From positions 127,429,450 through 127,493,449 of the forward strand of contig CP136069.1 in NCBI GenBank assembly GCA_032622095.1: 64,000 nt of DNA, given 5' to 3'. The notes under the pieces are model-generated. The model was not told the origin of the DNA, made no database searches, and saw only the letters and a list, made by a program, of their open reading frames with translations. Numbering within the stretch: the first letter of the stretch is position 1; each line of letters begins with the position of its first letter. This DNA is from Siphonodentalium dalli. Taxonomy: Eukaryota > Mollusca > Scaphopoda > Gadilida > Siphonodentaliidae. Position numbers and translations under genes: made by a program. Positions 14,111 through 49,534 of the stretch are shown one piece after another.

Positions 14111-15289
14111 ATTCCCTGACAGTTAACTATAGGTGTAGCATCTACATCCACATGTAGCTATATAGTCTGGACAGAAGCTAGATCCAGTCCCGCCGTATGT
14201 ACATTCATATTTCTATATAAAATGTCAATGTCTCTTAAGTTCAGAAATTTTCTTGTATATAAAAATGGATTTTCTCAAAATCTGTCAGGGATTTATCGTG
14301 ACACAATATATAAGAACCATCAACCCGCTGGGCATTATAACTTCATTTACTTTATCTTTATGGAATGAAAAATATTTAAAATTTCACTGTTTTCAGGTAC
14401 CAAGAACTTCTGTAAAATATTTTTTTCTCTCCAAAAGTACAGTTCATCACGAAGCCTCCTCTCATAGATCCAAGGCAGTAAGCTATTTGGTGTTTAGATT
14501 GTTTTGTGAAATTAATTCTTCTGGCAGTTCTTGGTACCGAAAGCGACAAAAAAGAAATTAATATTTTCAACCTCTCAAATGTACTAGGGTCCATTGTTTT
14601 TTTTAATAATTGCTTAGGTTCTAACTACAATGAAAATGGTGATATGTGAAATTCACGATATTTCACCTGGTAGATCCAAAGAAATTCTTTATTGTAAATC
14701 TGTTGCAATTTTTCGCTGGATTTATGCGAAACGTATGTCTACCCCTTAAATCTATTCTGTCTCTTCTGGACAACGGCTGAGAACATGGTGGCTAAGTTGG
14801 CACGGCGTATTAAACCAACATAAGCTACCAAACAGTGACAAAGGTAGCGATTGAATGAACACACGAATAGAGAAGGGATCAGTCCTGAATCCCGATCCTT
14901 TCACCTAGACAACATTGCCGCCAACACACTTTTCTCTCAATCTTTCTAGGATATTCCCCGAGATGTCAGCTTGAGCTGTCAGGTATTCGGAAAACTAATT
15001 CACCGAGGATGTTATCTGGCCGAATACCCGACAAGGAGGAGATATCTGGCTTACACACCAGTTACTTGGTGGTCCTGAAACCCACATACCTCGTATCAAA
15101 TACTATTAGATTGTTGGTAAACATTTCAACTATAGTAGTCTAGGCAAATATGGACATAGGTGTCGCCTCGAGAGGGAATTTATGAGACCTACATTTTTGG
15201 TTAGCATGAACTTAACTTTCGGAATCAGTATGTTGGATTTGTCAGATAATTCAATTCAATTAGTTTATTCTGATCGTCAAATTAAGACA
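14110..15289. other. No gene; contains a dispersed repeat at 14262-14410
   Basis: Positions 14262-14410 are similar, in reverse complement, to 52118-52270. For example, GGATTTTCTCAAAATCTGTC mirrors GACAGATTTTGAGAAAATCC, and GGTACCAAGAACT mirrors AGTTCTTGGTACC. Within the segment, GGTACCAAGAACT (about 14398) and AGTTCTTGGTACC (about 14527) are also inverted relative to each other and may be the ends of a small TIR element. The 102-codon open frame over it is not a recognised protein. Confidence 0.55.
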
Positions 15290-17736
15290 TCTCATATATA
15301 TTTTGAAGACCTCTGTCTGTATGTTTGTTTGTCTGTCTGTCTGTACAAATCTACGATTCTCGACCGATCGGGACGAAACTTGGTACGTGTGTGTAGTTTG
15401 ACCAGGCGGTGAACGTTGTCGTATTGGCGAGCCCGTGCGGCGCCCGCTTCGCGCATGCGCAGACGAGATCTCGGAAACGGGTGGAGCTATCGACTTGAAA
15501 TTTGCTATGTGAATGTATCTTGCCCCGGATACGAATTTTATCGGGTCGCCGAGCCCGTGCGACACCAGCTTCGCGCATGCGCAGACGAGATCTCGGAAAC
15601 GGGTGGAGCTATCGACTTGAAATTTGCTATGTGAATGTATCTTGCCCCGGATACGAATTTTATCGGGTCGCCGAGTCCGTGCGACGCCAGCTTCGCGCAT
15701 GCGCAGACCAGATCTCGGAAACGGGTAGAGCTATCGACTTGAAATTTTGTTTTTGAATAGCCCGGACAACGTCGGGCTCATCGGCTAGTCTCATATATAT
15801 TTTGAAGACCTCTGTCTGTATGTATGTTTGTCTGTCTGTCTGTCTGTCTGTCATTTATACAAATCTACGATTCTCGACCGATCGGGAGGAAACTTGGTAC
15901 GTGTGTGTAGTTTGACCAGGCGGTGAACGTTGTCGTATTGGCGAGCCCGTGCGGCGCCCGCTTCGCGCATGCACAGACGAGATATCGGAAACGGGTGGAG
16001 CTATCGACTTGAAATTTGCTATGTGAATGTATCTTGCCCCGGATACGAATTTTATCGGGTCGCCGAGCCCGTGCGACGCCAGCTTCGCGCATGCGCAGAC
16101 CAGATCTCGGAAACGGGTAGAGCTATCGACTTGAAATTTTGTTTATGAATAGCCTATCGACTTGAAATTTGATATGTGAATGTATCTTGCCCCGGATACG
16201 AATTTTATCGGGTCGCCGAGCCCGTGCGACACCAGCTTCGCGCATGCGCAGACGAGATCTCGGAAACGGGTGGAGCTATCGACTTGAAATTTGCTATGTG
16301 AATGTATCTTGCCCCGGATACGAATTTTATCGGGTCGCCGAGCCCGTGCGACACCAGCTTCGCGCATGCGCAGACGAGATCTCGGAAACGGGTGGAGCTA
16401 TCGACTTGAAATTTGCTATGTGAATGTATCTTGCCCCGGATACGAATTTTATCGGGTCGCCGAGCCCGTGCGACGCCAATTTGGCGCATGCGCAGACCAG
16501 ATCTCGGAAACGGGTAGAGCTATCGACTTGAAATTTGGTTTTTGAATAGCCCGGACAACGTCGGGCTCATCGGCTAGTCTCATATATATTTTGAAGACCT
16601 CTGTCTGTTTGTCTGTATGTATGTTTGTCTGTATGTCATTTATACAAATCTACGATTCTCGACCGATCGGGACGAAACTTGGTACGTGTGTGTAGTTTGA
16701 CCAGGCGGTGGACGTTGTCGTATTGGCGAGCCCGTGCGGCGCCCGCTTCGCGCATGCGCAGACGAGATCTCGGAAACGGGTGGAGCTATCGACTTGAAAT
16801 ATGCTATGTGAATGTATCTTGCCCCGTATACGAATTGTATCGGGTCGCCGAGCCCGTGCGGCGCCCGCTTCGCGCATGCGCAGACGAGATCTCGGAAACG
16901 GTGGAGCTATCGACTTGAAATTTGTATGTGAATGTATCTTTCCCCGGATACGAATTTTATCGGGTCGCCGAGCCCGTGCGACGCCAGCTTCGGGCATGCG
17001 CAGATAAGATCTCGGAAACGGGTGGAGCTATCGACTTGAAATTTGATATGTGAATGTATCTTGCCCCGGATACGAATCTTATCGGGTCGCCGAGCCCGTG
17101 TGACGCCAGCTTCGCGCATGCGCAGACCAGATCTCGGAAACGGGTAGAGCTATCGACTTGAAATTTGGTTTTTGAATAGCCCGGACAACGCCGGGCTCAT
17201 CGGCTAGTCTTATATATATTTTGAAGACCTCTGTCTGTTTGTTTGTATGTTTGTCATTTATACAAATCTACGATTCTCGACCGATCGGGACCAAACTTGG
17301 TACGTGTGTGTAGTTTGACCAGGCGGTGGACGTTGTCGTATTGGCGAGCCCGTGCGGCGCCCGATTCGCGCATGCGCAGACGAGATCTCGGAAACGGGTG
17401 GAGCTATCGACTTGAAATTTGGTATGTGAATGTATCTTGCCCCGGATACGAATTTTATCGGGTCGCCGAGCCCGTGCGACGCCAGCTTTGCGCATGCGCA
17501 GACGAGATCTCGGAAACGGGTGGAGCTATCGACTTGAAATTTGGTATTTGAATGTATCTTGCCCCGGATACGAATTTTATCGGGTCGCCGAGCCCGTGCG
17601 ACGCCAGATTCGCGCATGCGCAGACCAGATCTCGGAAACGGGTAGAGCTATCGACTTGAAATCGTCGGGCTTTGTAGAGCTATCGACTTGAAATTTGGTT
17701 TTTGAATAGCCCGGACAACGTCGGGCTCATCGGCTA

Positions 17737-18601
17737 TCTATTATATATTTTGGAAGATATGTGTGTGTGTGTGTGTGTATCTGTGTGTGTGTGTGTGTGA
17801 TCGCGATGAACTCGAAAACGGCCGATCCGATTTCGATGAAACTTGGTATGTGGGGGTATTGTCGGCCAGGAAGTGACACAGGCCTATTAATTTTCAGATC
17901 CGATGTCAACTTTTCACGTGCCGAGGTCAAATCTGTTTTTACGCTGTGTTACGGGACTTTCATTTGAGTTCGGTGCTTACAAATCGATTTGAAACAGCGC
18001 GAATAATAAAATGCCAGTCATAATAATGACACTGTGAGAATCTTTCGTGTTTCCTCTTTCCAACGATATATAATGCGTATGTATCCGTTTTAGTTATCTG
18101 CCTCAATTATCAAGAAGAAGTGGTACTATCTTCCATCAGGATAAAAACAATGCGTAACTTCTATGACGTCGTTAGAGGTCATAACGTTAGATCACGTTAA
18201 CGCTTAACCGGCCGATGCATTTGACTGTTTCAGACGTCTTGGGGATATCTCGGGCACCGATGGTAATTTATCTAATACGTTGAAACTTGATAATTAATGA
18301 GCGTGTGTATATGAGGCGCGTTTATATACTTGAGTGGAAATCAAATCGGGTTAAACTGGCGGATTTGTACGGACGAAATTTGATGCATAGGGTATCTCGG
18401 TATCCGCTGGGCCGATTTCCCGGTATCCGCTGGGCCGATTTCCACCATTTTTGGGGTGTTGGTGTTTGACCCCATCTGACCTTGACCTTCAAAATGGTAA
18501 ATTCAAGGTCAAAGCCCGGACGAAGTCGGGTCAACAATAATAAAATGGGACAGAGACATCACACTGAATTTCAGTGTTATACGGAACATTGTAAGGTATA
18601 A
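17737..18601 (+). mobile_element. Longer Helitron variant inside the array, copy 1
   Basis: It begins TCTATTATATATTTTGGAAG, a diverged form of the unit 5' end, directly after a CTA that lacks the usual final G. A (GT)n tract follows, then GATTTCGATGAAACTTGGTA. Near its right side lies a hairpin AGCCCGGACGAAGTCGGGTC (18513-18532), followed by about 70 bases without CTRR. The body is unlike the 122-bp core and contains TGACCTTGACC motifs. A near-identical copy lies at 20473-21335. An open frame of 68 codons here is not a recognised protein. Confidence 0.65.
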
Positions 18602-20472
18602 TCTCATATATATTTTGAAGACCTCTGTCTGTATGTATGTTTGTTTGTTTGTTTGTTTGTTTGTCTGTCTGTCATTTATACAAATCTACGATTCTCGACC
18701 GATCGGGACGAAACTTGGTACGTGTGTGTAGTTTGACCGGGCGGTGAACGTTGTCGTATTGTCGAGCCCGTGCGGCGCCCGCTTCGCGCATGCGCAGACG
18801 AAATCTCGGAAACGGGTGGAGCTATCGACTTGAAATTTGCTATGTGAATGTATCTTGCCCCGGATACGAATTGTATCGGGTCGCCGAGCCCGTGCGACAC
18901 CAGCTTCGCGCATGCGCTGACGAGATCTCGGAAACGGGTGGAGCTATCGACTTGAAATTTGCTATGTGAATGTATCTTGCCCCGGATACGAATTTTATCG
19001 GGTCGCCGAGCCCGTGCGACGCCAGCTTCGCGCATGCGCAGACCAGATCTCGGAAACGGGTAGAGCTATCGACTTGAAATTTTGTTTATGAATAGCCCGG
19101 ACAACGTCGGGCTCATCGGCTAGTCTCATATATATTTTGAAGACCTCTGTCTGTATGTTTGTCATTTATACAAATCTACGATTCTCGACCGATCGGGACG
19201 AAACTTGGTACGTGTGTGTAGTTTGACCAGGCGGTGGACGTTGTCGTATTGGCGAGCCCGTGCGGCGCCCGCTTCGCGCATGCGCAGACGAGATCTCGGA
19301 AACGGGTGGAGCTATCGACTTGAAATTTGCTATGTGAATGTATCTTGCCCCGGATACGAATTTTATCGGGTCGCCGAGCCATTGCGACGCCAGCTTCGCG
19401 CATGCGCAGACGAGATCTCGGAAACGGGTAGAGCTATTGACTTGAAATTTGGTTTTTGAATAGCCCGGACAACGTCGGGCTGGGTAGAGCTATCGACTTG
19501 AAATTTAGTTTTTAAATAGCCCAGACAACGTCGGGCTCATCGGCTAGTCTCATATATATTTTGAAGACCTCTGTCTGTATGTATGTTTGTTTGTTTGTTT
19601 GTTTGTCTGTCTGTCATTTATACAAATCTACGATTCTCGACCGATCGGGACGAATCTTGGTACGTGTGTGTAGTTTGACCAGGCGGTGAACGTTGTCGTA
19701 TTGGCGAGCCCGTGCGGCGCCCGCTTCGCGCATGCGCAGACGAGATCTCGGGAACGGGTGGAGCTATCGACTTGAAATTTGCTATGTGAATGTATCTTGC
19801 CCCGGATACGAATTTTATCGGGTCGCCGAGCCCGTGCGACGCCAATTTGGCGCATGCGCAGACCAGATCTCGGTAACGGGTAGAGCTATCGACTTGAAAT
19901 TTGGTTTTTGAATAGCCCGGACAACGTCGGGCTCATCGGCTAGTCTCATATATATTTTGAAGACCTCTGTCTGTTTGTTTGTATGTTTGTCATTTATACA
20001 AATCTACGATTCTCGACCGATCGGGACCAAACTTGGTACGTGTGTGTAGTTTGACCAGGCGGTGGACGTTGTCGTATTGGCGAGCCCGTGCGGCGCCCGA
20101 TTCGCGCATGCGCAGACGAGATCTCGGAAACGGGTGGAGCTATCGACTTGAAATTTGCTATGTGAATGTATCTTGCCCCGGATACGAATTTTATCGGGTC
20201 GCCGAGCCCGTGCGACGCCAGCTTCGCGCATGCGCAGACGAGATCTCGGAAACGGGTGGAGCTATCGACTTGAAATTTGGTATTTGAATGTATCTTGCCC
20301 CGGATACGAATTTTATCGGGTCGCCGAGCCCGTGCGATGCCAGATTCGCGCATGCGCAGACCAGATCTCGGAAACGGGTAGAGCTATCGACTTGAAATCG
20401 TCGGGCTGGGTAGAGCTATCGACTTGAAATTTGGTTTTTGAATAGCCCGGACAACGTCGGGCTCATCGGCTA

Positions 20473-21335
20473 TCTATTATATATTTTGGAAGATATATGT
20501 GTGTGTGTGTGTATCTGTGTGTGTGTGTGTGTGATCGCGATGAACTCGAAAACGGCCGATCCGATTTCGATGAAACTTGGTATGTGGGGGTATTGTCGGC
20601 CAGGAAGTGACACAGGCCTATTAATTTTCAGATCCGATGTCAACTTTTCACGTGCCGAGGTCAAATCTGTTTTTACGCTGTGTTACGGGACTTTCATTTG
20701 AGTTCGGTGCTTACAAATCGATTTGAAACAGCGCGAATAATAAAATGCCAGTCATAATAATGACACTGTGAGAATCTTTCGTGTTTCCTCTTTCCAACGA
20801 TATATAATGCGTATGTATCCGTTTTAGTTATCTGCCTCAATTATCAAGAAGAAGTGGTACTATCTTCCATCAGGATAAAAACAATGCGTAACTTATATGA
20901 CGTCGTTAGAGGTCATAACGTTAGATCACGTTAACGCTTAACCGGCCGATGCATTTGACTGTTTCAGACGTCTTGGGGATATCTCGGGCACCGATGGTAA
21001 TTTATCTAATACGTTGAAACTTGATAATTAATGAGCGTGTGTATATGAGGCGCGTTTATATACTTGAGTGGAAATCAAATCGGGTTAAACTGGCGGATTT
21101 GTACGGACGAAATTTGATGCATAGGGTATCTCGGTATCCGCTGGGCCGATTTCCCGGTATCCGCTGGGCCGATTTCCACCATTTTTGGGGTGTTGGTGTT
21201 TGACCCCACCTGACCTTGACCTTCAAAATGGTAAATTCAAGGTCAAAGCCCGGACGAAGTCGGGTCAACAATAATAAAATGGGACAGAGACATCACACTG
21301 AATTTCAGTGTTATACGGAACATTGTAAGGTATAA
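20473..21335 (+). mobile_element. Longer Helitron variant inside the array, copy 2
   Basis: Nearly identical to 17737-18601; the visible differences are the (GT)n length and a few substitutions. With the units on either side it forms a second-order repeat: the block 17208-19943 (units 4-7) corresponds to 19944-22931 (units 8-11). The blocks differ mainly in the number of 122-bp cores in their last unit. Confidence 0.7.
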
Positions 21336-23388
21336 TCTCATATATATTTTGAAGACCTCTGTCTGTATGTATGTTTGTTTGTTTGTTTGTTTGTCTGTCT
21401 GTCATTTATACAAATCTACGATTCTCGACCGATCGGGACGAAACTTGGTACGTGTGTGTAGTTTGACCGGGCGGTGAACGTTGTCGTATTGTCGAGCCCG
21501 TGCGGCGCCCGCTTCGCGCATGCGCAGACGAGATCTCGGAAACGGGTGGAGCTATCGACTTGAAATTTGCTATGTGAATGTATCTTGCCCCGGATACGAA
21601 TTGTATCGGGTCGCCGAGCCCGTGCGACACCAGCTTCGCGCATGCGCAGACGAGATCTCGGAAACGGGTGGAGCTATCGACTTGAAATTTGCTATGTGAA
21701 TGTATCTTACCCCGGATACGAATTTTATCGGGTCGCCGAGCCCGTGCGACGCCAGCTTCGCGCATGCGCAGACCAGATCTCGGAAACGGGTAGAGCTATC
21801 GACTTGAAATTTTGTTCATGAATAGCCCGGACAACGTCGGGCTCATCGGCTAGTCTCATATATATTTTGAAGACCTCTGTCTGTATGTTTGTCATTTATA
21901 CAAATCTACGATTCTCGACCGATCGGGACGAAACTTGGTACGTGTGTGTAGTTTGACCAGGCGGTGGACGTTGTCGTATTGGCGAGCCCGTGCGGCGCCC
22001 GCTTCGCGCATGCGCAGACGAGATCTCGGAAACGGGTGGAGCTATCGACTTGAAATTTGCTATGTGAATGTATCTTGCCCCGGATACGAATTTTATCGGG
22101 TCGCCGAGCCATTGCGACGCCAGCTTCGCGCATGCGCAGACGAGATCTCGGAGACGGGTAGAGCTATCGACTTGAAATTTGGTTTTTGAATAGCCCGGAC
22201 AACGTCTGGCTGGGTAGAGCTATCGACTTGAAATTTGGTTTTTAAATAGCCCAGACAACGTCGGGCTCATCGGCTAGTCTCATATATATTTTGAAGACCT
22301 CTGTCTGTATGTATGTTTGTTTGTTTGTTTGTTTGTCTGTCTGTCATTTATACAAATCTACGATTCTCGACCGATCGGGACGAAACTTGGTACGTGTGTG
22401 TAGTTTGACCAGGCGGTGAACGTTGTCGTATTGGCGAGCCCGTGCGGCGCCCGCTTCGCGCATGCGCAGACGAGATCTCGGGAACGGGTGGAGCTATCGA
22501 CTTGAAATTTGCTATGTGAATGTATCTTGCCCCGGATACGAATTTTATCGGGTCGCCGAGCCCGTGCGACGCCAGCTTCGCGCATGCGCAGACGAGATCT
22601 CGGAAACGGGTGGAGCTATCGACTTGAAATTTGCTATGTGAATGTATCTTGCCCCGGATACGAATGTTATCGGGTCGCCGAGCCCGTGCGACGCCAGCTT
22701 CGCGCATGCGCAGACGAGATCTCGGAAACGGGTGGAGCTATCGACTTGAAATTTGCTATGTGAATCTATCTTGCCCCGGATACGAATTTTATCGGGTTGC
22801 CGAGCCCGTGCGACACCAGCTTCGCGCATGCGCAGACTAGATGTCGGAAACGGGTGGAGCTATCGACTTGAAATTTGGTTTTTGAATAGCCCGGACAACG
22901 TCGCCCGGACAACGTCGGGCTCATCGGCTAGTCTCATATATATTTTGAAGACCTCTGTTTGTCTGTATGTTTGTCTGTATGTCATTAATACAAATCTACG
23001 ATTCTCGACCGATCGGGACGAAACTTGGTACGTGTGTGTAGTTTGACCAGGCGGTCGTCGTTGTCGTATTGGCGAGCCCGTGCGGCCCCCGCTTCGCGCA
23101 TGCGCAGACCAGATCTCGGAAACGGGTAGAGCTATCGACTTGAAATTTGCTATGTGCATGTATCTTGCCCCGGATACGAATTTTATCGGGTCGCCGAGCC
23201 CGTGCGCGACGCCAGTTTCGCGCATGCGCAGACCAGATCTCGCAAACAGGTAGAGCTATCGACTTGAAATTTGGTTTTTGAATAGCCCGGACAACGTCGG
23301 GCTGGGTAGAGCTATTGACTTGAAATTTGGTTTTTGAATAGCCCGGACAACGTCGGGCTCATCGGCTAGTTACAGATATATATGGATA

Positions 23389-24821
23389 CTAGCAGGTGGA
23401 CCGACTTCGTCCGGGCTGTTTCCCCTCTGCTGCTCGGCGAATTGCGCGATTTGACCTTGAATTGTCCAGTTTGAAGGTCAATGTCAGGTGGTGTCACGAT
23501 TTGACCAGTCCAAAACACTGCCCGGACAAAAGTACCCGACAAAAGTACCCATCGAAATCCATCCGGTTTTACCCGATTTGACCTCGAATTGATCATTTTG
23601 AAGGTCAAGGTCAGGTCGGGGTCACGATTTGACCCGTCCAAAACACTCAGTGGACAAAAGTAACCTACCTCTGCTTTTCGGCGAATTTCGCGATTTGACC
23701 TTGAATTGTCCATTTTGAAGGTCAAGGTGAGGTGGGGTCATGATTTGACCCGTCCAAAACACAGCCCGGACAAAAGTACCCGTCGAAATCCATCCGGTTT
23801 TACCCGATTTGACCATTTTGAAGGTCAAGGTGAGGTGGGGTCACGATTTGACCCGTCCAAAACACTGCCTGGACAAAAGTACCAGACAAAAGTACCCGTC
23901 GAAATCCATCGTTTTTACCGATTTGACCTCGAATTGGTCATTTTGAAGGTCAAGGTCAGGTCGGGGTCACTATTTGACCCGTCCAAAACACTCCGTGGAC
24001 AAAATGTGGACCCGACTTCGTCCGGGCTGTTTCCACTCTGCTTTTCAGCGAATTGCGCGATTTGACCTTGAATTGTCCATTTTGAAGGTCAAGGTGATGT
24101 GGGGTCACGATTTTACCCGTCCAAAACACTGCCCGGACAAAAGTACCCGACAAAAGTACCCGTCGAAATCCATCCGATTTTACCCGATTTGACCTCGAAT
24201 TGATAATTTTGAAGGTCAAGGTCAGGTCGGGGTCACGACTCGACCGTTCCAAAACACTCAGTGGACAAAAGTAACCATATGTATGACATTGAATTGTCCA
24301 TTTTGAAGGTCAAGGCAAGGTGGGGTCACGATTAGACCCGTCCAAAACACTGCCCGGACAAAAGTACCCGTCGAAATCCATCCGGTTTTACCAGATTTGA
24401 CCTCGAATTGATCATTTTGAAGGTCAAGGTCAGGTCGGGGTCACGACTCGACCCGTCCAAAACACTCAGTGGACAAAAGTAACCCCACTATCAAATTTCG
24501 TCGAAATCCCATCAAAATTCGCGATTTGACCTTGAATTGACCCGATTTCAAGGTCAAGATCACGTCGCACGGGCAAACGAACAGGCTTACGACACTCCCC
24601 ATACGAAAGTATCCCCAGACACTAATTTTCCCGTGATACTCGGGAGTTCGACCTTGAAATAACCCGATTTCAAGGTCAAGGTCACGTCGCACGGGCAAAT
24701 TAACAGGCACATGCCACTCCACGGCCGAAAGTACCCCCACATGCCAAGTTTCATCGAAATCGGCTCGGCCGAACACACAGACAGACATACAGACACACAC
24801 ACACACACCCTTGTTTGTAGA
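23389..24821 (-). mobile_element. Helitron-like element in minus orientation, with internal GGTCA-rich tandem repeats
   Basis: Read on the minus strand, the 3' end is AGCCCGGACGAAGTCGGTCC, five bases (ACCTG), then CTAG (23389-23392) followed by T. This is the same hairpin-plus-CTAG layout as the neighbouring array. The 5' region on the right has the GTGT/TCTG microsatellite and ATTTCGATGAAACTTGGCAT, matching the variants at 17737 and 20473. The interior (23440-24560) is a tandem repeat with units of about 110-235 bp built on GAAGGTCAAGGTCAGGTCGG and CCCGTCCAAAACACT. The exact 5' terminus (about 24821) is uncertain, since the preceding base is not A. No protein is encoded. Confidence 0.65.
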
Positions 24822-30599: not shown

Positions 30600-31803
30600 G
30601 AGATTGTTAAGTCACTTGGTCATACATGGTGTCTGTTCCAAGGTCACAGGAACATCGGAAGGGCAAATTATCTTGACAGCATTAAACCCTTCCAGTCCCA
30701 AAATACCTTAGCTAGCAAATTTTGTTGATATAGGCCCAATAGTTTACGAGTGTACCTGATTAAGAGAAAGCATGCGCCTTATTCTGACCCAAGTTATAAA
30801 CTTAAAGGGGCATATGTCAGAAACTAATAGAATTAATATTCTGAGAAATTAGTTTGCTGTTTTAATTAAGGTCTTAAAAATCTAGAAATAATCCAGTAAC
30901 AATTTAAACCAATATCTTTCAAGTGACTGTATAACAACTGAAGTTATTTATTATATGACTGTAGTTTTCTCTCCCCGTATCTTGCTTAAACGCGTTCTAG
31001 TTTTTCTATTAGAAAACAAGAGTGTTTTTTTCTCCTATTTATTATGCTACTCAGCATGTCATCGGTGTCGTCATTTTGTAAACATCATATACTGAATGAA
31101 GCGAGAAATCGATTCGTTCGTTTCTAGGCTTAATTTTCGAACCCCCAGATAACATTATATAAAACTATATGCCATATAGTATACAATTTGAAAGAGGACG
31201 CTGAAAGACATTGTATTATCAACTTATCCGTTGTAATAAACTGTGAACATGTTGCTTTTGTTGATGTTACCGACGTGTTTTCTATGCTTAAGTTTCTGCA
31301 ATGTTTATTATTTTCAATGGAAGGGGAATAACTCTATATCTTAGTTTGAATTCTATTGCATTCTGAGAGCGAGACGGTGGAAATGTTTCTATGATTTCAG
31401 CTTTTTTCTATTCCTATATGGGCACCTTCTGAGACACACATTCCAAATGGTGATGAATTGTAGTATTTTCATCATATTTTGTGTCATAGATTGTTATTAA
31501 AACCGTATATCAAGGCATTTAAAGACGTTTTGGCCGGGTTCATGTGGTCTTTCGCGCTTCTTGTAAATAAATTGTGTGTGTTCCTGTTGGGAAAGAATCA
31601 GGGGATTTTGAATGTCGTTCCTCAGTTGGTGGCGGTATTTGTGATTTTATGTTGCGTTCTTTAATCCTGACAGCATTTTTTTCTGGGAATCTATAACTAC
31701 ATGTATGCACCCATGCATGGATGGGTGTGTGAATGAAATGCTGACAGCAATGTTCAGACATGTGACAAATTAACATTTTGTCCTGTTTTGTGTGTGTTTC
31801 TTT
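30600..31803. other. No gene recognised
   Basis: AT-rich sequence. Positions about 31590-31740 resemble 31840-31920 in pieces (CAGTTGGTGGCGGT, CATGGATGGGTGTGTGAATG against ATGGATGGTTGTGTGAAATG), so an old local duplication is likely. The 61-codon frame at 31479 lies in it and is not called. Confidence 0.4.
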
Positions 31804-32185
31804 TCAAGTTTCTTGAAAAGAGGTACCCGGGTGCTTTTGTTGGGACCCCCGTCGCGTTCTTGATGCTCACATCCTGTTTCGGGGAACCTATATATGGATG
31901 GTTGTGTGAAATGAATGCTGGCAACATAGCGCACATATTTAGTGATATAAACCATACAATTATGACATAATATCATGCTGCACCTAAATGTGAATTTGCG
32001 CAAATGTTTGAAATGAATTCCTGCTGTTAAATTAATATTCAACGGATATTTTGCTGGTTACTCAGCCATATAGATTACGCACCGGTGGCTTTATTATTAT
32101 ACATTTGGGTTTATATATTAATCACTTTCGTAATTTCACTGTATACTTCTGAAGACTCGAGCGACTCCTCATTCTGCTGGTCGGG

Positions 32186-32243
32186 ATGGATTCACTTCTC
32201 ATAGTTAGATTTCTGTGTGTCGCGGTATATTGTATCTGTGTTG
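32186..32243 (+). CDS. Possible first exon encoding a signal peptide
   Basis: The ATG is followed by 19 codons reading MDSLLIVRFLCVAVYCICV, a short basic-hydrophobic stretch typical of a secretion signal. A good 5' splice site (TTG|GTAAGC) then leaves phase 1. First exons of secreted metazoan proteins often have this form. I cannot find a convincing next exon. An acceptor at about 32420 (TTTTTGCAG) would give a stop after seven codons, and read-through of the genomic frame gives only 85 codons. It may be a remnant or chance. Confidence 0.25.
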
Positions 32244-32407
32244 GTAAGCAATTTATAAAGGATTTACAAAGATGTATAAATGGATCCGTATTTTTTTGTG
32301 AAAAATATTTTACGTCTTATTTTGATTCTAATGTGAAAAATAACAGAATTGGAACAATATCGATACCAAATGCATACAAGACGCTTAGTTGTTTAATATT
32401 TAATGTT

Positions 32408-33590
32408 CTATCCATTTTTGCAGTGGAACAAATAAAAGAATGAATTATTGTAGATGTTGTAATAACTGGATGTTTGGAACCGTGTTGCACCTTTATAAGT
32501 GGAATGTCTATGCAAAACTTCTCGGCAGTAGTTATGAAATATCTCATATTTTATGGATTCAAAAATGGTGAAATATCGGATGACTTGGGAATTAGTCCGT
32601 GGTCGGTTTTTGGACACGTTCCAATTACACGGCTGAGTGTTTTTAGAATTTATATTGCCAATAGTTATATACTTAGTTAATTTTTTCAACAACGAAATTA
32701 TTTATTTTTATTAATTGGTCTACTTACTCAACTGTACCACATTAGTTTTTTAAACATTGTTTTGCAGTGGAACAAAGCTAAATAATTAATTATATTATAT
32801 GTTGTAGTAACTGGAAGTTTGGAACCGTGGCACACCTTTATAATTGGAATGTCCATGCAAAACTTCTCGGCAGTAGTTGTGAAATATCTCATATTTTAAA
32901 GGGGTCCTGTACGCCATTTTCAATAAATTCCCGGTGATAAGAACGGTCTAATATCGATAATATATAGACAACTAAGTAATTTGAGTCAAAGATGTATTAT
33001 GTAAACGTTCAGGTTAATAGGTTATCTTAAAATCAAAGTTAATAATTTTATATCAATTTATTTTATGGCTAGAGCCATAAATTAAATTACAAATTTCCGT
33101 GTACAAGAGGTAATAAAAATAATTCACGGATAGTGGATTGGGCAAAACGTGGCACACATGATCGTGTTCAAAATTATGTTGATACTTGGCGTAAACTCAA
33201 GCCACTCACTGACTATATAGTGACTATACAATGATTTAATGATTATGTGGGACTAGTATGCATATAATATAACATTTATTTGACACATTTGCTTGAAAAC
33301 TGTCAAAAAATTACTCGACATCGACAATTGGTATTTTTGCATTCCGGGTAATCAGCCATCCGTAACATTACTTCGTAATCAACAGACTTTTAAAAGATAG
33401 AAATCTGGTTACCTTATTCTACAACTCAGAGACTAAAGAAACCAGCAACAACATTTTGGTACAGTATCCCTTTAAGGATTCAAAGATATGTGAAATATCG
33501 GATGACTTAGGAATTTGTCCGTGGTCGGTTTTTGGATGTTTCAATTACACGGCTGTGCGTTTTTGTGTAATTTCTATTGCCATATTTGAA
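32408..33590 (+). repeat. Local duplication (about 250 bp), second copy split by a MITE
   Basis: The segment 32415-32665 (TTTGCAGTGGAACAAA, TGGAACCGTG, GCAAAACTTCTCGGCAGTAG, GGAATTAGTCCGTGGTCGGT) recurs as 32760-32899 plus 33472-33590. The latter two pieces are separated by the TTAA-flanked element. The duplication predates the insertion. The 68-codon frame at 32474 is carried by the first copy and is not conserved in the second. Confidence 0.8.
32900..33471. mobile_element. TTAA-flanked MITE (Kolobok- or piggyBac-type), copy in block 1
   Basis: It is flanked by TTAA at 32896-32899 and 33472-33475. The termini AGGGGTCCTGTAC and GTACAGTATCCCT are inverted repeats with two mismatches. The uninterrupted paralogue at about 32549-32560 shows the pre-insertion sequence, so the ends are certain. 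TTAA duplication is used by piggyBac and Kolobok. The AGGG terminus fits Kolobok better than the CCY of piggyBac; this is from family knowledge. No transposase is encoded in the 572 bp. Confidence 0.85.
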
Positions 33591-34920
33591 ACGAAATTAT
33601 AAAATATCCGTGATTTTTGAAACAACTTAGGGTAAATGCTTATTTTATATGAATATATATATTAAATTATTTGACGTTCATTGAAATTCTGTTAAGAGGA
33701 ATTCAATTAAAATATATCCAACTTTGTGCTCAGAGATAATCAATCCCTGTTTAGATAAATTCTATTGAACTTAAAGACATATAATAGACTTGTTCGGCTG
33801 CGTAGAACTGCAAGTGAGTACACAGACGCTATGCCAGCTGTGTCAATGTAGCATTATACTAACATCGCCGAAAAAAATCAAAGAAATCGACCATCCCACT
33901 CCATAGAAATCATCGTCTGAACTACGCTTATAATTGTAAATATTTACATCTCGTTTCGGGACACAGCAATCGGCGATAAACTAACGCAAATGTTTTCGCC
34001 ATCAAGAGTCATTGCATTTAATTAATATATCAGAATGACAATGACAATTCCATTGAGCATACATGTGCCCGTGGAATCGGCGTTGAATAAATCAGCGCTC
34101 GGGCGCTGCTATTAGCGGAGCGGATATGTGCCAGAAATAGGCGAATCGTTACACTTTGTGAATAAATTACGAAATTTTACACACTTAATCTTTGGTATGT
34201 CTCGGTTTAGCAACATACCCCTGTGATAATTTACGGCCATCTATGTGAATAGTATCAGACATGTCGATGTAGGCATTGCTTTATCCAATAGAGAAAAGAC
34301 CAATATATATAACAGACTGTAAAATTTGGGCCCAGATCACCAAAATTTAGCTTGTTGCCATGGAAACTAATGGATTTTCTTCAAAAACTGAGTAAAAAAA
34401 TTAAAATTTGGACTTAGTTTGTACCTGTCAGCACAAAATTCATGCGATAAGTTTAAATTTAAGATAATATCATCTTCGGTAATCCATAAAGACAATATAA
34501 CAGATTTTTCGCATTTAGCTAGTGATTGACCACAATAAACGAAGTTTTATATGAACACTGGTTGACGCGAATTGGCAGTTTCGAGATTGGCTGGTTGTTG
34601 ACAAATTGAAGTTCAGGTAGTAGCTTTGGTGCACATGTTAAGAATGGGAATTCCTGCTATAAGATTACATTCGCAGCTCTGAAATATGATATATATATAT
34701 GTATATATCATCAAAGCAGGTTTCCCCATACCCACATTTAGGCCCTAGTTGCCATGGGAACAAGCTTTCCCCAATTAACTCTGCCAATAGGCACACTAGC
34801 TGATATGTAGATATCCAGGCACCCCCATGATTTAACTTCACCTGACTCATTTTCCTCCGCATTATGTCCCTCAACATTTAATCAATGTTAACACGAAAAA
34901 AGTGGTCGTGTAGACACCAG
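33476..34920. other. No gene recognised
   Basis: After the end of the local duplication (about 33590) I see only AT-rich sequence with a short (TA)n-like palindrome at 34685-34710. The 70-codon frame at 34665-34877 has no recognisable motif. Confidence 0.4.
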
Positions 34921-34924
34921 ACCA

Positions 34925-37900
34925 TTCACTAAGTCAGTTTGATGCAAATTATAGTGAGAAAATATTGTCATATGTATACAAATGTATATATTTTTGTGAA
35001 GCTAAGATATAATTCCACTTGTCATAGTAAAATGGGAACTCCCCGTTCAAGATGGTCGCCAAAATGGTAGTCGGGAGTGGAAATTTAATGTTTTTCACTA
35101 ATAACTTCTTGATCAGTTTCTGTTGTATGGAACTGGGTGATAATTGAGACTTTATTTTCTACTGTTCATTTAAGTGATCGTTGGAGCAATGAAATATGCC
35201 ATTCATGTGGTCCCCGTCTCTTCCGATCCATAAAAATTCGATTTTACAGAACGCGATAAAAATTCACCAAAAATCACCTTTGGGATTGTAGTCATATTTC
35301 AACAATAAATGGGAAGAACTGTGCACTGTAAGTAAGGCATACCATTACTTATGAATATTCCAACTCAATCTGACTCAATGGAGCCAAAATTGTCTCTCTG
35401 GCTCTCAAACTGGCTGCCAAAATGACACCCAAAATATGGAAAATGGTAAATATCGTCCCAGCGTGTCATGCAATCGGTTAAAAGTTGGTTAATTTATAAA
35501 ATTGGCTATTGTGTATTTTATAGATTGAATACTAACATTGTTAATACACCTCGCTTGAATGTTAGTATTGTATATAGCCACTGACATTACCAGAATTATT
35601 GGAATTTTCTATCACAAACTCGACATCAAAATCGGCAAAAAAATTACTTTTCTGGTTTAGACGATTTTTTCAAGTAAAATGGAACTATCTTTGGTATCAA
35701 ATCTGTTTATTGTTTCGATCTCTCTTAAATGAGTGACACTGAGGTGTTTTTAGACAAAATTACCCAAGATAGCAACCAAATTTGATAAAAAATAGTTTAT
35801 TTTTCACATATATACCCAACATTATTCTTTGCTCTTCCGAAATTGTAGCAAATTGTGACATATACTTTGTTACTAAATATGTAACATAATTCACTGACAA
35901 TTAAATGTTCTATTCTGGATGTCTCAGTACATTATACGGCATGTCACATTCATGTTAAAGGATGCAGTATGGAATGTTAGCGAAAACTTATTTTGGGATT
36001 CTGGCCAGTTTTGAACAGAACTTTGAAACTGAACTGAGATGTGCCATATTATGTGTCTAATTTGCCCAACAACATCAAAATTCATCACAATTGATTGACT
36101 CATGTCAGGAAAACCGTTTCCTCCATTGTACAGATAACACACCATCATGCTAGAGAACACTATGACATTACCTCTCTATCTATTAGCATGTCCATGAGTT
36201 ATTGTGGAAAGCGATAGTCACCCAGATGTACGCCTGTACAACCCACACATGAACATGCAACACTCCATATATACATGAACACCACACAAATGACCATGTA
36301 GCCACTCGCTTTATACACATACATCTCACGCATGACCATACAGCCATACATTGTATACCCGTACACCCACACATGAATATACAGTCATGCAGGCACACCA
36401 GGTATAACCCTACACATCACCATGACTATATTGTCACTCCATGTGTAATTGTTCACCACATCGATGATCATAGTCACTTCTTGTATACATATTCGCCTCA
36501 TCAGTGGCCATAGAATCACTCCCTGTATATTTATTTGCCACACCATGGCCATATAGCCACTCAAGATATACATATACACTACAACCATAACAATAGTCAC
36601 TACAGTTATACATATACACATCACTAATGGCCATACAGCCCTTCTATATATCCCATACTCTGCACACGGCCATTCATACAGGCCAGACTTGAATGTACAT
36701 CTCACTCATGGCAATTCAGACTCTCGCTGTATACTCACACATCACATTCGTAGTCATACAGTAATTCCTTGTATACATATGCACTCCGCCATTGGTCATA
36801 TTGTTGCTCCCTGTACACATATTGCCCACAAATATGGACAAATAGCCACTCAAGACATATATATAAACCCCACCTGTGCATATATAGTCACTCTAGGTAT
36901 ACATAAACACATCACCAATGGCCATACAACCCTAGATATACCAATATCCCGGATATCACATCAACATTGGCCATACTGTCACTCCTGGTATACCTATTGG
37001 CCACACCCATTACCATATAGCCACTCAATATATTCATACACATCCCACTCATGGCCATATAGTCTCTCCGGGTATACATCTACACCTCACCAATGACCAT
37101 GGGGCCCTTCAATATATACCAATACCCTGATCACACAGCCATCCATACACTCCAGACTTACATATACACATCACCAATGGCAATTTAGACACTCGCTGTA
37201 TACTCACACATACCAATTTATGACTACTTACCTATTTATGACTACTTACCTATTTACCCGCTCATTGTATAACTTTCGCCACACCATGGCCATATAGCCA
37301 CTCAGAATATTCATATTCACCCCGCATATTACCACAGCATGTATACACATACAGTACACCTCATCAATAGATATACCAATACCCGGCGCATATGGTCATG
37401 TGTACACCCCAGACTTGCATATACACATCGCCCATGAGAACCCATCGACTCGCTGTATACTGTTACACACATCCATGACAATACAGACACAGCAGATATG
37501 CATTTACATACCATATATACACCCATGTCCACAATGACACTTCCTCTATACCCACAAGCCCGCCAATGACTACCCAGCTATACATGTATTCCATGTATGC
37601 ATATACACTTCAGCAATCACGACCGTACATTCATTCCATGTACACCTATATACATTACCCATAAGCATACAACCACTCCCCATTTGTCCATACATCCACC
37701 CATGATCATACAGCCAACACGTGTATAGATATACATCCATCCATAATATAGCCACCCAAGATACACCTGTAAATCCCACACATGGCTATCTAGTCACTTC
37801 ATATATACATAAACAATACACCGATGACCATGTAGCTACTCTCGCTATACCCATACACCACATCAATTATCATGCAGCCACTCCCTGTATTCCTATTCAC

Positions 37901-38390
37901 TTCACACATGACCATACAACCACTCCTTGTATACATATGCATTTCATTGACACCCCACCCATGACCATATAGCCACTCCTTGTATAACTATTCACATCGT
38001 TCATGGTCATACAATAACTCCCTCTAAACATATTCACATGCAGTCACACCCTGGCTGCCATTTTGAATTACATCATGTATTAATTTGATCAATTGTGAAG
38101 CTAATGGATAAGAGTAGCCACATAATATGGTTCCTCTCAGTTCTGTTTCGAAGTTTTGCCCATTTCCGTTTAGAAATATGACCATAACACAAAAGACGAT
38201 TTGTCAGAATTCCATACTGCATCTTTAAAATGAATTTGTCATCCCCAGAAGGTACTGGGACAACCAGAATGGAACATTTCGTGTCAGTTAATTATATAAC
38301 TTGGTTAATAGCCAAATGAGCTACAACCTATGCTACCTTTTTCGGAACAGCAGAGAATAATGTTCGGGATATATGTGACAAATCATTTAA
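34925..38390. mobile_element. Foldback/satellite element (family FB-42), copy in block 1
   Basis: The left arm (34925 to about 36200) is the reverse complement of 2200-3450. A central array of the 42-bp satellite occupies 36200-38060. A short right arm (38060-38385) is inverted relative to the left, with GAGTAGCCACATAATATGG and TTCGGAACAGCAGAGAATAA. The right arm is only about 330 bp, so it is truncated. The arm-border-satellite-arm order is the same as in 56773-62024. No protein is encoded. Confidence 0.7.
36200..38060 (-). repeat. 42-bp satellite, array B
   Basis: About 44 units in minus orientation read ACTCxxTGTATACATATxCA then CxTCAxxxATGGCCATAxAGxC. Translation of 36689-37096 shows strict 14-residue steps (HTVIPCIHMHSAIG, HIVAPCTHIAHKYG, QIATQDIYINPTCA, YIVTLGIHKHITNG), confirming the 42-bp period. 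The frame is open for 135 codons only because the period is a multiple of three. Confidence 0.85.
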
Positions 38391-38725
38391 CAAGAAATTC
38401 AATTAATTGAGGAAAAACACCCACTGTCCCGAGTGGTATTGATAAGCTATTGGAGGGTCTTCCACTTCGCATGCAAAATAGCAAAATATTATTAATTGAT
38501 GACTGATGTACATGTACAGTACACACATAGTAATAACAATTAACGTTATGATTTGAAACTAACCATGATAGGATATTGACAGTAAGGTGGTATTATCTAC
38601 TACGAGTGGTATTAGTAATAATAGTACCATTCTAGCATAATATATGTGTACATGATGTATGGGAAATATTAAAGGACAAAACCATAGTTACAATACAATT
38701 AGAACTTTTTTTTAAATTAATCGCA
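38391..38725. other. No gene recognised
   Basis: AT-rich sequence between the foldback element and the TTAAGCGC palindrome array; nothing supported. Confidence 0.4.
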
Positions 38726-38727
38726 AG

Positions 38728-39205
38728 AAGAGCTAATTGCACTTAAGCACAATAAGGGAATCTCTATTGTGATTAAGCGCAATAAGGATATATTTAACTT
38801 TGCTTAAGCGCAATAATGGAATTTACAAATTGCGCTTATATAATAAAACCCAATAAGGAATCTCTTAATAAGGAATATATTATATATAGAACATAAACTC
38901 CCTATAATTCAGGTGGTGTAGTCCATCTCCATGGTACAATGGGTGGAACAAATATAGGATTATTCTACTATTTGCACAAGGGTGATCTAATGAGAGAGAT
39001 ATTAATTGCGCTTAAGTGCAATATTGATGTAATTTCGCTTACATGTAATAAGGAATGTCTTATTACACTTAAGCGCAATAAGAATATTCCTTATTGCACA
39101 GGAATATCACATTGTGCTCAAGCGCAATAAGGTATATCTAACTGCGCTTAAGCACAATAACTGAAGGAATAATCTTATTGGGCTTGAGCTCAATTAGAGA
39201 TTCCT
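38728..39205. repeat. Array of ATTGCGCTTAAGCGCAATAAGG-like palindromes
   Basis: About ten dispersed copies of a palindrome centred on CTTAAG (TTGCACTTAAGCACAATAAG, GATTAAGCGCAATAAGG, TTGCTTAAGCGCAATAA, ATTGCGCTTAAGTGCAAT) are separated by 20-60 bp, and many are followed by GGAAT or GGATAT. The core GCGCTTAAGCGC is shared with the TIR element at 25339, although the flanking consensus differs (CAATAAGG rather than CAAAT). A 63-codon frame is carried by the array. Confidence 0.75.
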
Positions 39206-40036
39206 TAAGTTATTGCAGTTCATCGAAATTGTCTATTAAATGTCAAGTTGGTTTCCCATAGAGATCATCAACGATGTCAATGCGCAAGGGACCTACGCCA
39301 GTCTTCTCTGTTGGGATTCCAATTGTTGGCTTATTAAATATGCACATATGCTTAAGATACAGTCGTGCGCGAAGCGCGCTCCTGTAGGTCAGGTTTTGGA
39401 TCCCAGTGAATTAAAATATCATTGAAATAATCGGTCCCCCCCCCCATCCAATAAACATCCATATATTGAATATATACATGTTTTTGGAGCAGAATTAGAT
39501 AGTCCATATTGGACGCCATCATGGAATTTAATTTTTTTATTTAATTTTCACACATAGTTATTAGTTATGTGGATGGCGTTATCATTAAACATCACACCCG
39601 TATATTGATTATGTGGATAGAGTTATCATTAAACCTCACATCCTTATATTGGTTACAGTAATGCCCAAAGTAATTGACCACTTAACCACAGCAGAATTAT
39701 TGGTAATTTTTCAGGATTTAAAATCCTGAAAAATTACCCATAATTCTGCTGTGGTTAAGTGGTCAATTACTTTGGACATTACTGTATGTGGATAGAGTTA
39801 TCATTACACCTCACATCCTTATATTGGTTAGGTTATGTAGATGTGAGTTATCATTAAACCTCACATCAGTGTGTTGGGGATTTTGGACCTTGACTTGGGA
39901 CCTTTGGTTTTTAACGCAACAAATGCGAGTACACCTTATACACAAGTTTCTTGGATAAGATGAGTTTGAAGCCTGCTTACATTTCGAAATGTTGTCAGTT
40001 TTGTATCGCCTGCAGCAGAAGCAAAAGTTACAAGAG
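39206..40036. other. Intergenic; encloses the palindromic MITE 39654-39786
   Basis: TTATCATTAAACCTCACATC(CTTATATTGGTTA) is repeated at about 39580, 39620, 39795 and 39850, forming a loose repeat of 50-60 bp interrupted by the MITE. A 61-codon frame at 39240 is not called. Confidence 0.5.
39654..39786. mobile_element. Palindromic MITE, TACAGTAATG family, short member (block 1)
   Basis: A 133-bp almost perfect palindrome: TACAGTAATGCCCAAAGTAA and CTTAACCACAGCAGAATTAT pair with the complement ending CATTACTGTA, with no loop at GGATTTAAAATCC. The outer 70 bp match the member at 26804-27020, which has a longer centre. Confidence 0.85.
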
Positions 40037-40890
40037 ATAAAATATGTACGTAACGAGACTATAATACAAATGAAAAAATAAATTCAGGGAGGGGTGGGCG
40101 ATACAGGGAACTAAGGGTTGAACCGATATAAATTTGTAGAGCGATAACGACCAATGTTGACATATCATGCATCTCAACTCTACTGTTGAAACAAGGCTAT
40201 AAAATGGGGGGGGGGTGTCATAATCTTAGTTATCTCTATATAGTGCCAGAATAGTCATTTATGGACTTCTATAGTGGTACAATGCAAATTGGAATCAAAT
40301 GATAAAAATATGTATGTAACGCAACTACGGTATACGGATGAAAATAAAAATAATAATTTAGGCCGGGATTAGATGTTGGGTTGGTTAAATAGACTCGGAG
40401 AAAAAGGGGAACGATGAACTGACATAAATTAGTAGAGCGATAGCGATCAATGTTGCCATGTGATGCATCGCGACTGTACTGTAGCAGCAATGATATAAAA
40501 TTGGGGGGGTGGACTGAAATTATCTCTATCTCTATAGATGGCACCAGGATTATATAGAAAGGAATAGCAATTGATATACGTATACCGTATACTATAGTAA
40601 TACCATAGACATATAAGTACAAGTATCACATGATAAAATATTACGTAACTTGACTATAGCGATGAAAGAAAAAAAAATTGGACCGGGATTAGAGGTTCGG
40701 TTGGTTATATGTGGATAATTGGATATGGAATTCATACCGATGAGACGATAAAAATTAGTGGAGCGATAAAGACCAATGTTGACACTTAGTCAGGCGGTTG
40801 ATACGATAGACCGAAATAAATTTGTCGGGTGATAATGACCAATGTTGACGTATAATGTAACGCGACTGTACTGTCGCACAATTATCAGGT
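40037..40890. repeat. Degenerate tandem repeat of about 265-330 bp
   Basis: Three units begin at about 40037, 40300 and 40631 with GATAAAAATATGTATGTAAC-like sequence. They share GGGATTAGATGTTGGGTTGG, AGAGCGATAACGACCAATGT and a short G-run after ATAAAAT. The duplicated block ends inside the third unit. The 117-codon minus-strand frame here is not a gene. Confidence 0.65.
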
Positions 40891-41552
40891 AGAACCTGTT
40901 AAATATGGACTCTGGTGGCCAATATGGAACAGCTCAGAAAACATTCGCAGTGCCCTAAAATTTATTTAACATGGGATCTGCCATTAAAATTGATTTATGT
41001 CGATAAAATTCTTATTTTTCAAAATTTTAAGCTGAAACTTGGTGTGTCTGTGTGGAATACTTATATATTCCTAAAATGACAGGGTACAGCACGTAATTAT
41101 TTTTTAGATGGAAGAAATTAATTTTTTTCGATGATAAATTTTAACATGGGATTTGCTATTCAAATCGATTTATGTCGATAAAACTCTTATTTTGAAAAAT
41201 TTTAAGCTGAGACTTGGTGTGTCTGCGTGGAATACTTATATATTCCTAAAATGACAGGGTACAGCACGTAATTATTTTTTAGATGGAAGAAATTATTTTT
41301 TTTCGATGATAAATTTTAACACGGGATTTTCCCATTCAAATCGATTTATGTCGATAAAACTGTTATTTTTTCAAAATTTTAAGCTGAGACTGAGGTATGT
41401 CTGCGTGGAATACTTATATATTCCTAAACTGACAGGGTCCAGCACGTAATTATCTTTTAGATGGAAGAAATTGATTTGTTTCCATGATAAAAATCGAGCG
41501 TGTACTGTAACTGTGCGGCAGGCAGTGTGCGCTCAAAATGTAAACAACTTTC
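40827..41552. repeat. Spacer between duplicate blocks, with three 175-bp tandem units
   Basis: Units start at 40967, 41142 and 41317 (TTAACATGGGATTTGC, then AATCGATTTATGTCGATAAA, then GACAGGGTACAGCACGTAAT) and are about 95% alike. The array ends near 41490, just before the second block begins with TCAAGTTTCTTG at 41553. Confidence 0.85.
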
Positions 41553-41934
41553 TCAAGTTTCTTGAAAAGAGGTACCCGGGTGCTTTTGTTGGGACCCCCG
41601 TCGCGTTCTTGATGCTCACATCCTGTTTCGGGGAACCTATATATGGATGGTTGTGTGAAATGAATGCTGGCAACATAGCGCACATATTTAGTGATATAAA
41701 CCATACAATTATGACATAATATCATGCTGCACCTAAATGTGAATTTGCGCAAATGTTTGAAATGAATTCCTGCTGTTAAATTAATATTCAACGGATATTT
41801 TGCTGGTTACTCAGCCATATAGATTACGCACCGGTGGCTTTATTATTATACATTTGGGTTTATATATTAATCACTTTCGTAATTTCACTGTATACTTCTG
41901 AAGACTCGAGCGACTCCTCATTCTGCTGGTCGGG

Positions 41935-41992
41935 ATGGATTCACTTCTCATAGTTAGATTTCTGTGTGTCGCGGTATATTGTATCTGTGTTG
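41935..41992 (+). CDS. Possible signal-peptide exon, copy in block 2
   Basis: Identical to 32186-32243, including the GTAAGC donor. As in the first copy, no following exon is convincing. Confidence 0.22.
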
Positions 41993-42648
41993 GTAAGCAA
42001 TTTATAAAGGATTTACAAAGATGTATAAATGGATCCGTATTTTTTTGTGAAAAATATTTTACGTCTTATTTTGATTCTAATGTGAAAAATAACAGAATTG
42101 GAACAATATCGATACCAAATGCATACAAGACGCTTAGTTGTTTAATATTTAATGTTCTATCCATTTTTGCAGTGGAACAAATAAAAGAATGAATTATTGT
42201 AGATGTTGTAATAACTGGATGTTTGGAACCGTGTTGCACCTTTATAAGTGGAATGTCTATGCAAAACTTCTCGGCAGTAGTTATGAAATATCTCATATTT
42301 TATGGATTCAAAAATGGTGAAATATCGGATGACTTGGGAATTAGTCCGTGGTCGGTTTTTGGACACGTTCCAATTACACGGCTGAGTGTTTTTAGAATTT
42401 ATATTGCCAATAGTTATATACTTAGTTAATTTTTTCAACAACGAAATTATTTATTTTTATTAATTGGTCTACTTACTCAACTGTACCACATTAGTTTTTT
42501 AAACATTGTTTTGCAGTGGAACAAAGCTAAATAATTAATTTTATTATATGTTGTAGTAACTGGAAGTTTGGAACCGTGGCACACCTTTATAATTGGAATG
42601 TCCATGCAAAACTTCTCGGCAGTAGTTGTGAAATATCTCATATTTTAA

Positions 42649-43220
42649 AGGGGTCCTGTACGCCATTTTCAATAAATTCCCGGTGATAAGAACGGTCTAA
42701 TATCGATAATATATAGACAACTAAGTAATTTGAGTCAAAGATGTATTATGTAAACGTTCAGGTTAATAGGTTATCTTAAAATCAAAGTTAATAATTTTAT
42801 ATCAATTTATTTTATGGCTAGAGCCATAAATTAAATTACAAATTTCCGTGTACAAGAGGTAATAAAAATAATTCACGGATAGTGGATTGGGCAAAACGTG
42901 GCACACATGATCGTGTTCAAAATTATGTTGATACTTGGCGTAAACTCAAGCCACTCACTGACTATATAGTGACTATACAATGATTTAATGATTATGTGGG
43001 ACTAGTATGCATATAATATAACATTTATTTGACACATTTGCTTGAAAACTGTCAAAAAATTACTCGACATCGACAATTGGTATTTTTGCATTCCGGGTAA
43101 TCAGCCATCCGTAACATTACTTCGTAATCAACAGACTTTTAAAAGATAGAAATCTGGTTACCTTATTCTACAACTCAGAGACTAAAGAAACCAGCAACAA
43201 CATTTTGGTACAGTATCCCT
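42649..43220. mobile_element. TTAA-flanked MITE, copy in block 2
   Basis: Duplicate of 32900-33471 with TTAA at 42645-42648 and 43221-43224. It was copied as part of the block, not inserted independently. Confidence 0.85.
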
Positions 43221-48138: not shown

Positions 48139-48476
48139 ACAAGAAATTCAATTAATTGAGGAAAAACACCCACTGTCCCGAGTGGTATTGATAAGCTATT
48201 GGAGGGTCTTCCACTTCGCATGCAAAATAGCAAAATATTATTAATTGATGACTGATGTACATGTACAGTACACACATAGTAATAACAATTAACGTTATGA
48301 TTTGAAACTAACCATGATAGGATATTGACAGTAAGGTGGTATTATCTACTACGAGTGGTATTAGTAATAATAGTACCATTCTAGCATAATATATGTGTAC
48401 ATGATGTATGGGAAATATTAAAGGACAAAACCATAGTTACAATACAATTAGAACTTTTTTTTAAATTAATCGCAAG

Positions 48477-49401: not shown

Positions 49402-49534
49402 TACAGTAATGCCCAAAGTAATTGACCACTTAACCACAGCAGAATTATTGGTAATTTTTCAGGATTTAAAATCCTGAAAAATTACCCATAATTCTGCTGT
49501 GGTTAAGTGGTCAATTACTTTGGACATTACTGTA
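49402..49534. mobile_element. Palindromic MITE (TACAGTAATG), copy in block 2
   Basis: Duplicate of 39654-39786, unchanged. Confidence 0.85.

Follow-up and report, generated by a model that had tools for sequence, protein, structure and literature searches.

We found an array of head-to-tail Helitrons in the window, a 64,000-nucleotide stretch of contig C9 (127429450-127493449) from a genome of 2.23 Gb in nine contigs, and we suggest that this array was most likely built mainly by repeated insertion of new copies at an A|T whose A belongs to the host and whose T opens a resident Helitron, followed by one crossover. The layout of the array is real and is very common in the genome. Joins between different Helitron families are frequent and strongly polar, and joined neighbours are only slightly more alike than units taken from elsewhere.

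Overall organization of the array

The array (15290-23369) is composed of 12 family A units and two family B elements (Table 1). It contains ten CTAG ends, nine of which are followed by TCT (15788, 16577, 17207, 19123, 19547, 19943, 21853, 22277, and 22931), while the tenth at 23369 is followed by T, and the left neighbour of the array, base 15289, is A. An earlier note on this DNA had recognized the ten CTAG ends, the nine internal CTAG|TCT joins, the tenth end on the right border, and the outer flanks A and T, all of which are seen in the sequence. The Helitron identity that it assigned, the head-to-tail joins at the units' own ends, and the A|T flanks also hold across the genome. It had further described two joins running through a longer variant of the unit. 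These two joins are present at 17736/17737 and 20472/20473, but they read CTA|TCTATTATATATTTTGG with the final G missing, and the longer unit into which they lead is an element of a separate family, B.

The B elements of the window have lost their own right end, after 18533 in the first copy and after 21267 in the second, and 68 bp of other DNA lies between each of them and the following A unit, whose start at 18602 or 21336 is preceded by GTATAA. When we searched the genome with 17737-18610, the 38 places outside the array among the best 40 all ended at query base 797 (18533). The window contains one open reading frame of at least 150 amino acids, with a length of 174 amino acids.

Table 1. 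Features of the Helitron array and its borders, in window positions.
Feature	Position	Strand	Basis
Left host junction A|TC	15289..15290	+	sequence
Family A unit 1, CTAG|TCT join	15290..15788	+	unit ends
Family A unit 2	15789..16577	+	unit ends
Family A unit 3	16578..17207	+	unit ends
Family A unit 4, start TCTTAT, end CTA without G, joined to B	17208..17736	+	unit ends
Family B Helitron, left end intact, right end lost	17737..18533	+	genome matches
Non-element DNA, 68 bp, 7-bp stem; last base A adjoins next unit	18534..18601	+	sequence
Family A unit 5	18602..19123	+	unit ends
Family A unit 6	19124..19547	+	unit ends
Family A unit 7, probable hybrid at crossover	19548..19943	+	high identity to second block stops near 19844
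Family A unit 8, copy of 17208-17736	19944..20472	+	unit ends, self-comparison
B element, second copy	20473..21267	+	sequence, genome matches
68-bp spacer, second copy	21268..21335	+	sequence
Family A unit 9	21336..21853	+	unit ends
Family A unit 10	21854..22277	+	unit ends
Family A unit 11	22278..22931	+	unit ends
Family A unit 12, hairpin and CTAG right end	22932..23369	+	unit ends, fold
Host target right of array: T, then ATATATAT (TTACAGATATATATGG...)	23370..23389	+	sequence

Classification of the element families

The 12 A units of the window are 396-789 bp long. Each begins with TCTCATATATATTTTGAAGACCTCTGT or a slight variant of it, continues with simple TCTG/TGTT repeats and an approximately 120-bp head, and then has one or more 122-bp monomers, and the 3' part usually contains GCCCGGACAACGTCGGGC, TCATCGG, and CTAG. 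Family B starts with TCTATTATATATTTTGG and outside the window often ends with GGGTCACCTTCTAG. The units are non-autonomous canonical Helitrons (Helitron1), as examination of their termini and insertion sites revealed. First, the 5' TC and 3' CTRR of canonical Helitrons are found as TCTCAT... and CTAG, with a CTA end in two of the 12 window units. Second, a 6-bp stem stops 10 bases short of the 3' end, where canonical Helitrons carry a hairpin about 10 bases before the terminus, and its fold is no stronger than that of shuffled sequences (z -0.60; 52 of 200 as good). Third, insertion occurs between A and T without target duplication: T is the first base in all 27 distinct host right flanks, and the distinct sequences on the left of A ends finish with A in 32 cases (two of which are Helitron ends without G), with T in one, and with G in one, while 17 are joined through CTAG. 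An assignment to Helentron or HINE elements was rejected, since these need insertion in TT and A|T was found here. Classical satellite DNA was likewise ruled out by the TC/CTAG borders of the units, the A|T outer flanks, and the occurrence of single copies in host DNA.

Joins across the genome and their polarity

The exact 20-base join CATCGGCTAGTCTCATATAT occurs 7,565 times in the genome (3,741 + 3,824) and its reversed-letter control 0 times, indicating that the join is not due to chance. The genome contains 15,660 exact A left ends, of which 7,828 lie behind CTAG, 7,241 behind A (a count that includes the G-less joins with an A start), and 591 remain. About half of the exact A left ends thus adjoin a preceding Helitron right end, and an A precedes most of the rest. 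G-less joins of the form CTA|TCT number 320 when A-type and B-type starts are taken together. Of the 30 A ends that come first on contig C1, 28 could be classified on reading, three of them being copies that share a flank with others; another Helitron left end followed 19 units (A in nine, B or a relative in ten), and host DNA followed nine.

We then compared the joins between the two families. Exact A-to-B joins amount to 3,038 and B-to-A joins to 320, a polarity of 9.5:1, in counts that take in copies from later duplication; 4,233 B right ends lead into an A-type or B-type left end, and the 320 B-to-A joins are among them. Amplified clusters contribute on both sides, with C1:13.75-13.79 Mb supplying 18 of the first 100 A-to-B places and C2:103.71-103.80 Mb supplying 17 of the first 100 B-to-A places. 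Since A-to-B and B-to-A joins alternate in arrays of two families, duplication within arrays adds both about equally. This alternation together with the 9.5:1 excess suggests that most mixed arrays open with A and close with B, a deduction that other families lying between would loosen.

These counts bear on the mechanism favoured by the earlier note, in which rolling-circle replication with missed termination leaves a concatemer of one element, as in the published view of bat and silkworm arrays. The perfect CTAG|TC joins agree with it, and according to the accessible part of the Helraiser report, this element makes circles with joined ends (PMC5876387). However, a concatemer of a single element yields no A-B joins, and the mixed-family joins with their 9.5:1 polarity therefore count against it.

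Likeness of joined neighbours

A concatemer formed in one round should consist of near-identical units of one family, and we examined the divergence of neighbouring units in 79 complete A units, 77 of which have a usable head. They were cut from the window and 78 further loci, 79 sequences that fall into 52 merged regions, and the sampled arrays lie mainly within the initial 20 Mb of a single contig. First, the median distance was 0.0535 for the 24 joined A pairs and 0.0711 for units of different regions. When the pairs were re-paired, the joined mean of 0.0625 compared with 0.0699 (sd 0.0049), and 123 of 2000 re-pairings were as low, or 92 of 2000 with the window array left out, so that joined A neighbours show at most a slight excess of likeness. 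Second, among the 77 units sampled, 33 of the 39 with a joined A neighbour had a closer relative in another region. Third, unit lengths agreed within 5 bp in two of the 24 joined pairs, and the distance was below 0.03 in three of the 24; one joined pair measures 982/982 bp with a distance of 0.027. Finally, no age gradient was observed along the 24 A-A pairs, the downstream unit being the more diverged in 12 and the upstream unit in 12.

The few closely similar pairs are what missed termination would leave, and it may account for a minority of the joins, such as that of the 982/982 bp pair. As the main route, which the earlier note had assumed, it does not agree with the excess of A-to-B over B-to-A joins, with the unequal unit lengths, or with neighbour distances close to those of re-paired units, and we regard it as unlikely.

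A duplicated block inside the array

Comparison of the window with itself gave a 2,945-bp match of 98.4% identity at a shift of 2,736, in which 17212-19844 recurs at 19948-22580. Of its 47 differing columns, 15 fall in 16981-17211 and 9 in 19845-19908, and the other 23 are spread over the 2.6 kb between. The near-identity stops within the unit 19548-19943, away from the element ends, which is the pattern left by homologous unequal crossing-over. The best explanation is that the array was enlarged later by a block of about 2.7 kb through one unequal crossover. Because the block is repeated, the nine internal joins counted in the earlier note are real but represent only about six or seven independent joins, and the two A-to-B joins of the window represent one.

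This block, with its break inside a unit, also agrees with the proposal that unequal crossing-over between tandem units produced most joins from one or a few founders, as do the slight extra likeness of neighbours and the evenly repeated join clusters on C1 and C2. However, crossing-over cannot create the founding joins, it would not on its own produce the imbalance of 3,038 to 320 joins between families, and for most joined units a closer relative was sampled in another region; we consider it quite unlikely as the general source of joins. It is highly improbable that A-B composites move as a single element whose inner terminator is skipped, with one A-B join being copied often, since, although terminator bypass has been described for Helitrons in the available text of PMC5148889 and some A-B pairs are duplicates with common flanks, the A units before B vary from 370 to 982 bp and the 18 sampled B elements behind A units (mixed subfamilies, some picked because they resemble the window copy) show distances of 0.05-0.27 to the majority sequence of B, a spread that argues against one composite that multiplied.

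Target motif and the element left end

To describe the target, 96 distinct sequences behind Helitron right ends were collected from the sampled loci, of which 26 differ from the A/B left end by more than five edits and were used as host right flanks; a 27th, locus L036, came from a separately written search. TATATA lies within the first 14 bases of 24 of these 27 flanks, and the other three, L036 included, lack the box. As background, both strands of the window were scanned outside the array; of the 12,337 A|T sites there, 277 carry the same motif, which also occurs in three of 30 left flanks. The element left ends TCTCATATATATTTT, TCTATTATATATTTT, and TCTACTATATATTTT also contain TATATA. When we applied a weight matrix with fixed register, the ends of A, B, and C ranked among the best 2.2%, 3.5%, and 9.9% of background A|T sites, respectively, percentiles indicating that the short motif alone is insufficient for the preference, and in a leave-one-out analysis the target of this array ranked no higher than 45% of the background. 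Since the position of the box varies by a few bases, the matrix performs less well than the TATATA test, which does not depend on register.

A|T sites with TATATA occur about five times per kb in the window, or about 11 million times per genome if the window is typical, compared with some tens of thousands of left ends. If the genome is assumed to hold between 22,611 and 50,000 left ends, the 28 sampled units and the site density of the window alone would make left ends better targets than other A|T sites with TATATA by a factor of roughly 245 to 1,030, later duplications being included in this estimate.

Proposed origin by insertion at resident left ends

Based on these observations, we suggest the following route for the growth of the array by insertion at resident elements. 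The families insert between A and T with a TATATA box usually a few bases to the right, as observed on the 27 flanks, and the family A left end TCTCATATATATTTTG has a target-like layout. Since the left end resembles the target, a host A followed by a resident left end would again form a good target. New copies of the same or related families would land there, and each would be joined through CTAG|TC to the resident without intervening sequence. The side of insertion follows from the A|T rule, since the left junction of a resident supplies A|T while its right junction would need G|T, and as the left junction after insertion is again A|TC, the site would never be exhausted. Arrays would then grow leftward and older families would come to lie on the right, with family A presumably younger than B. 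Evidence against this route comes from the missing age gradient along A-A pairs, the modest matrix ranks of the element ends, the three host flanks that lack TATATA, and the slight extra likeness of joined A pairs. The Rep protein may choose the target in the same way as it recognises its own left end, and the block of about 2.7 kb would have been added later by unequal crossing-over.

We lean, with some reserve, toward a wider reading in which Rep reads targets as left ends, resident left ends are the best targets, and arrays are records of insertion order, in which the youngest element lies furthest 5', and act as landing pads by which host genes are spared. Head-to-tail Helitron arrays that have been cited for missed termination would need re-reading if most joins are insertions at resident left ends, a mode of growth that would also explain how a transposon concentrates itself in safe arrays, and the thousands of natural joins in this genome allow target choice, insertion order, and later crossing-over to be measured.

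Comparison with known Helitrons

Insertion at a resident element has already been proposed for one maize pair (PMC2267711). As far as its available text goes, that report describes a CTAG|TC head-to-tail join of two different Helitrons at r1, as here, names insertion at the AT made of a host A and the first T of the resident among the possible routes, and gives both models while leaving the insertion order open. The maize case is a single pair, whereas thousands of joins, their polarity, and a target motif common to the left end are found here. In Fusarium and Metarhizium, the accessible portion of PMC5148889 presents one case of three tandem copies, explained either by insertion at the 5' end or by rolling-circle replication; the Fusarium elements differ in having Helitron2-like ends.

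Bat Helibat and Helraiser share the TC and CTAG ends, the hairpin, and the A|T target with the elements described here (PMC4778049, PMC5876387, in the parts accessible). New Helraiser insertions favour AT-rich DNA, a bias that is strongest 3' of the insertion site, and the left end of the element is AT-rich near the cut, but the available text ties this AT-rich left end to melting and not to targeting (PMC4778049). Tandem arrays are cited in the accessible text of PMC5876387 in support of rolling-circle transposition. The AT target of Helitrons is also given in the available parts of PMC13286980 and PMC3789558. Oyster Helentrons resemble the A units as non-autonomous rolling-circle elements carrying satellite-like tandem repeats (PMC7492417), and Helentrons differ in inserting in TT instead of A|T. 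Among the matches listed, whose titles and abstract openings cover subscription journals thinly, neither a test of array polarity between families nor a proposal that the left end copies the target motif appeared, which is weak evidence that both are new.

Candidate autonomous partner

We searched for a Rep protein that could mobilize these elements. At least 151 PF14214 matches were obtained, with 150 of 457 candidates scored. Locus L081 encodes a Rep domain along with the first part of a PIF1 helicase, which was seen at this locus only, as well as HAH and YLFKY, which we take to be the HUH and two-tyrosine motifs; it shows no tie to family A, and no A or B ends were found within about 1.5 kb of the domain at the ten Rep loci L081-L090. 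For locus L091, Pfam gave only STPRs in the part of the reading frame outside the PF14214 match.

One Rep element on C1 combines an A left end and A-type monomers with a PF14214 match in an open frame of 1,614 amino acids, and a pairing of family A with this C1 Rep gene is likely rather than proven, since no A-type right end was found on the candidate copy examined, which carries a hairpin-like GCCCGAACAACATTCAGGC and a CTAG followed by C. The 5' spacer of the C1 element recurs elsewhere in the genome, and a same-strand PF14214 match lies within 6 kb downstream in 18 of the 39 spacer places listed (compared with 45 Rep places, partly hand-picked for nearness). Among four further copies of the Rep element, the whole A left end is present in two, its last part in one whose sequence began there, and none of it in one. 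Both Rep-linked copies with the whole A left end have an A-type right end directly in front of them, CTAG in one and CTA in the other.

Joins, spacers and neighboring repeats

When we examined the joins within the Helitron array, the final G of CTAG was missing at two of them, possibly owing to a shifted cut or base loss. Genome-wide, such G-less joins number 320, with A-type and B-type starts pooled. Two copies found at the places of Rep-linked spacers, L094 with its A end at 305 and L095 with its own at 53, have the right end of another A unit immediately before their left end.

A 7-bp stem lies within the 68-bp stretch that follows the truncated family B element, and this stretch could be either captured flanking sequence bearing an improvised terminator or simply host DNA.

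About 155 bp to the right of the array, degenerate tandem repeats with GACAAAAGTACCC start. The window also contains an inverted pair of repeats and a direct repeat, the latter being either an artefact of the assembly or the product of tandem duplication in the very recent past.

Positions of the joins, spacers and repeats in the window
Feature	Positions	Size	Identity	Gap
G-less joins	17736/17737; 20472/20473			
Stretches after truncated B	18534-18601; 21268-21335	68 bp		
Degenerate tandem repeats	23525-24162			
Direct repeat	31800-40826 / 41548-50573	9.03 kb	99.93%	721 bp
Inverted repeats	56769-58586 / 60212-62024	1.8 kb	98.6%
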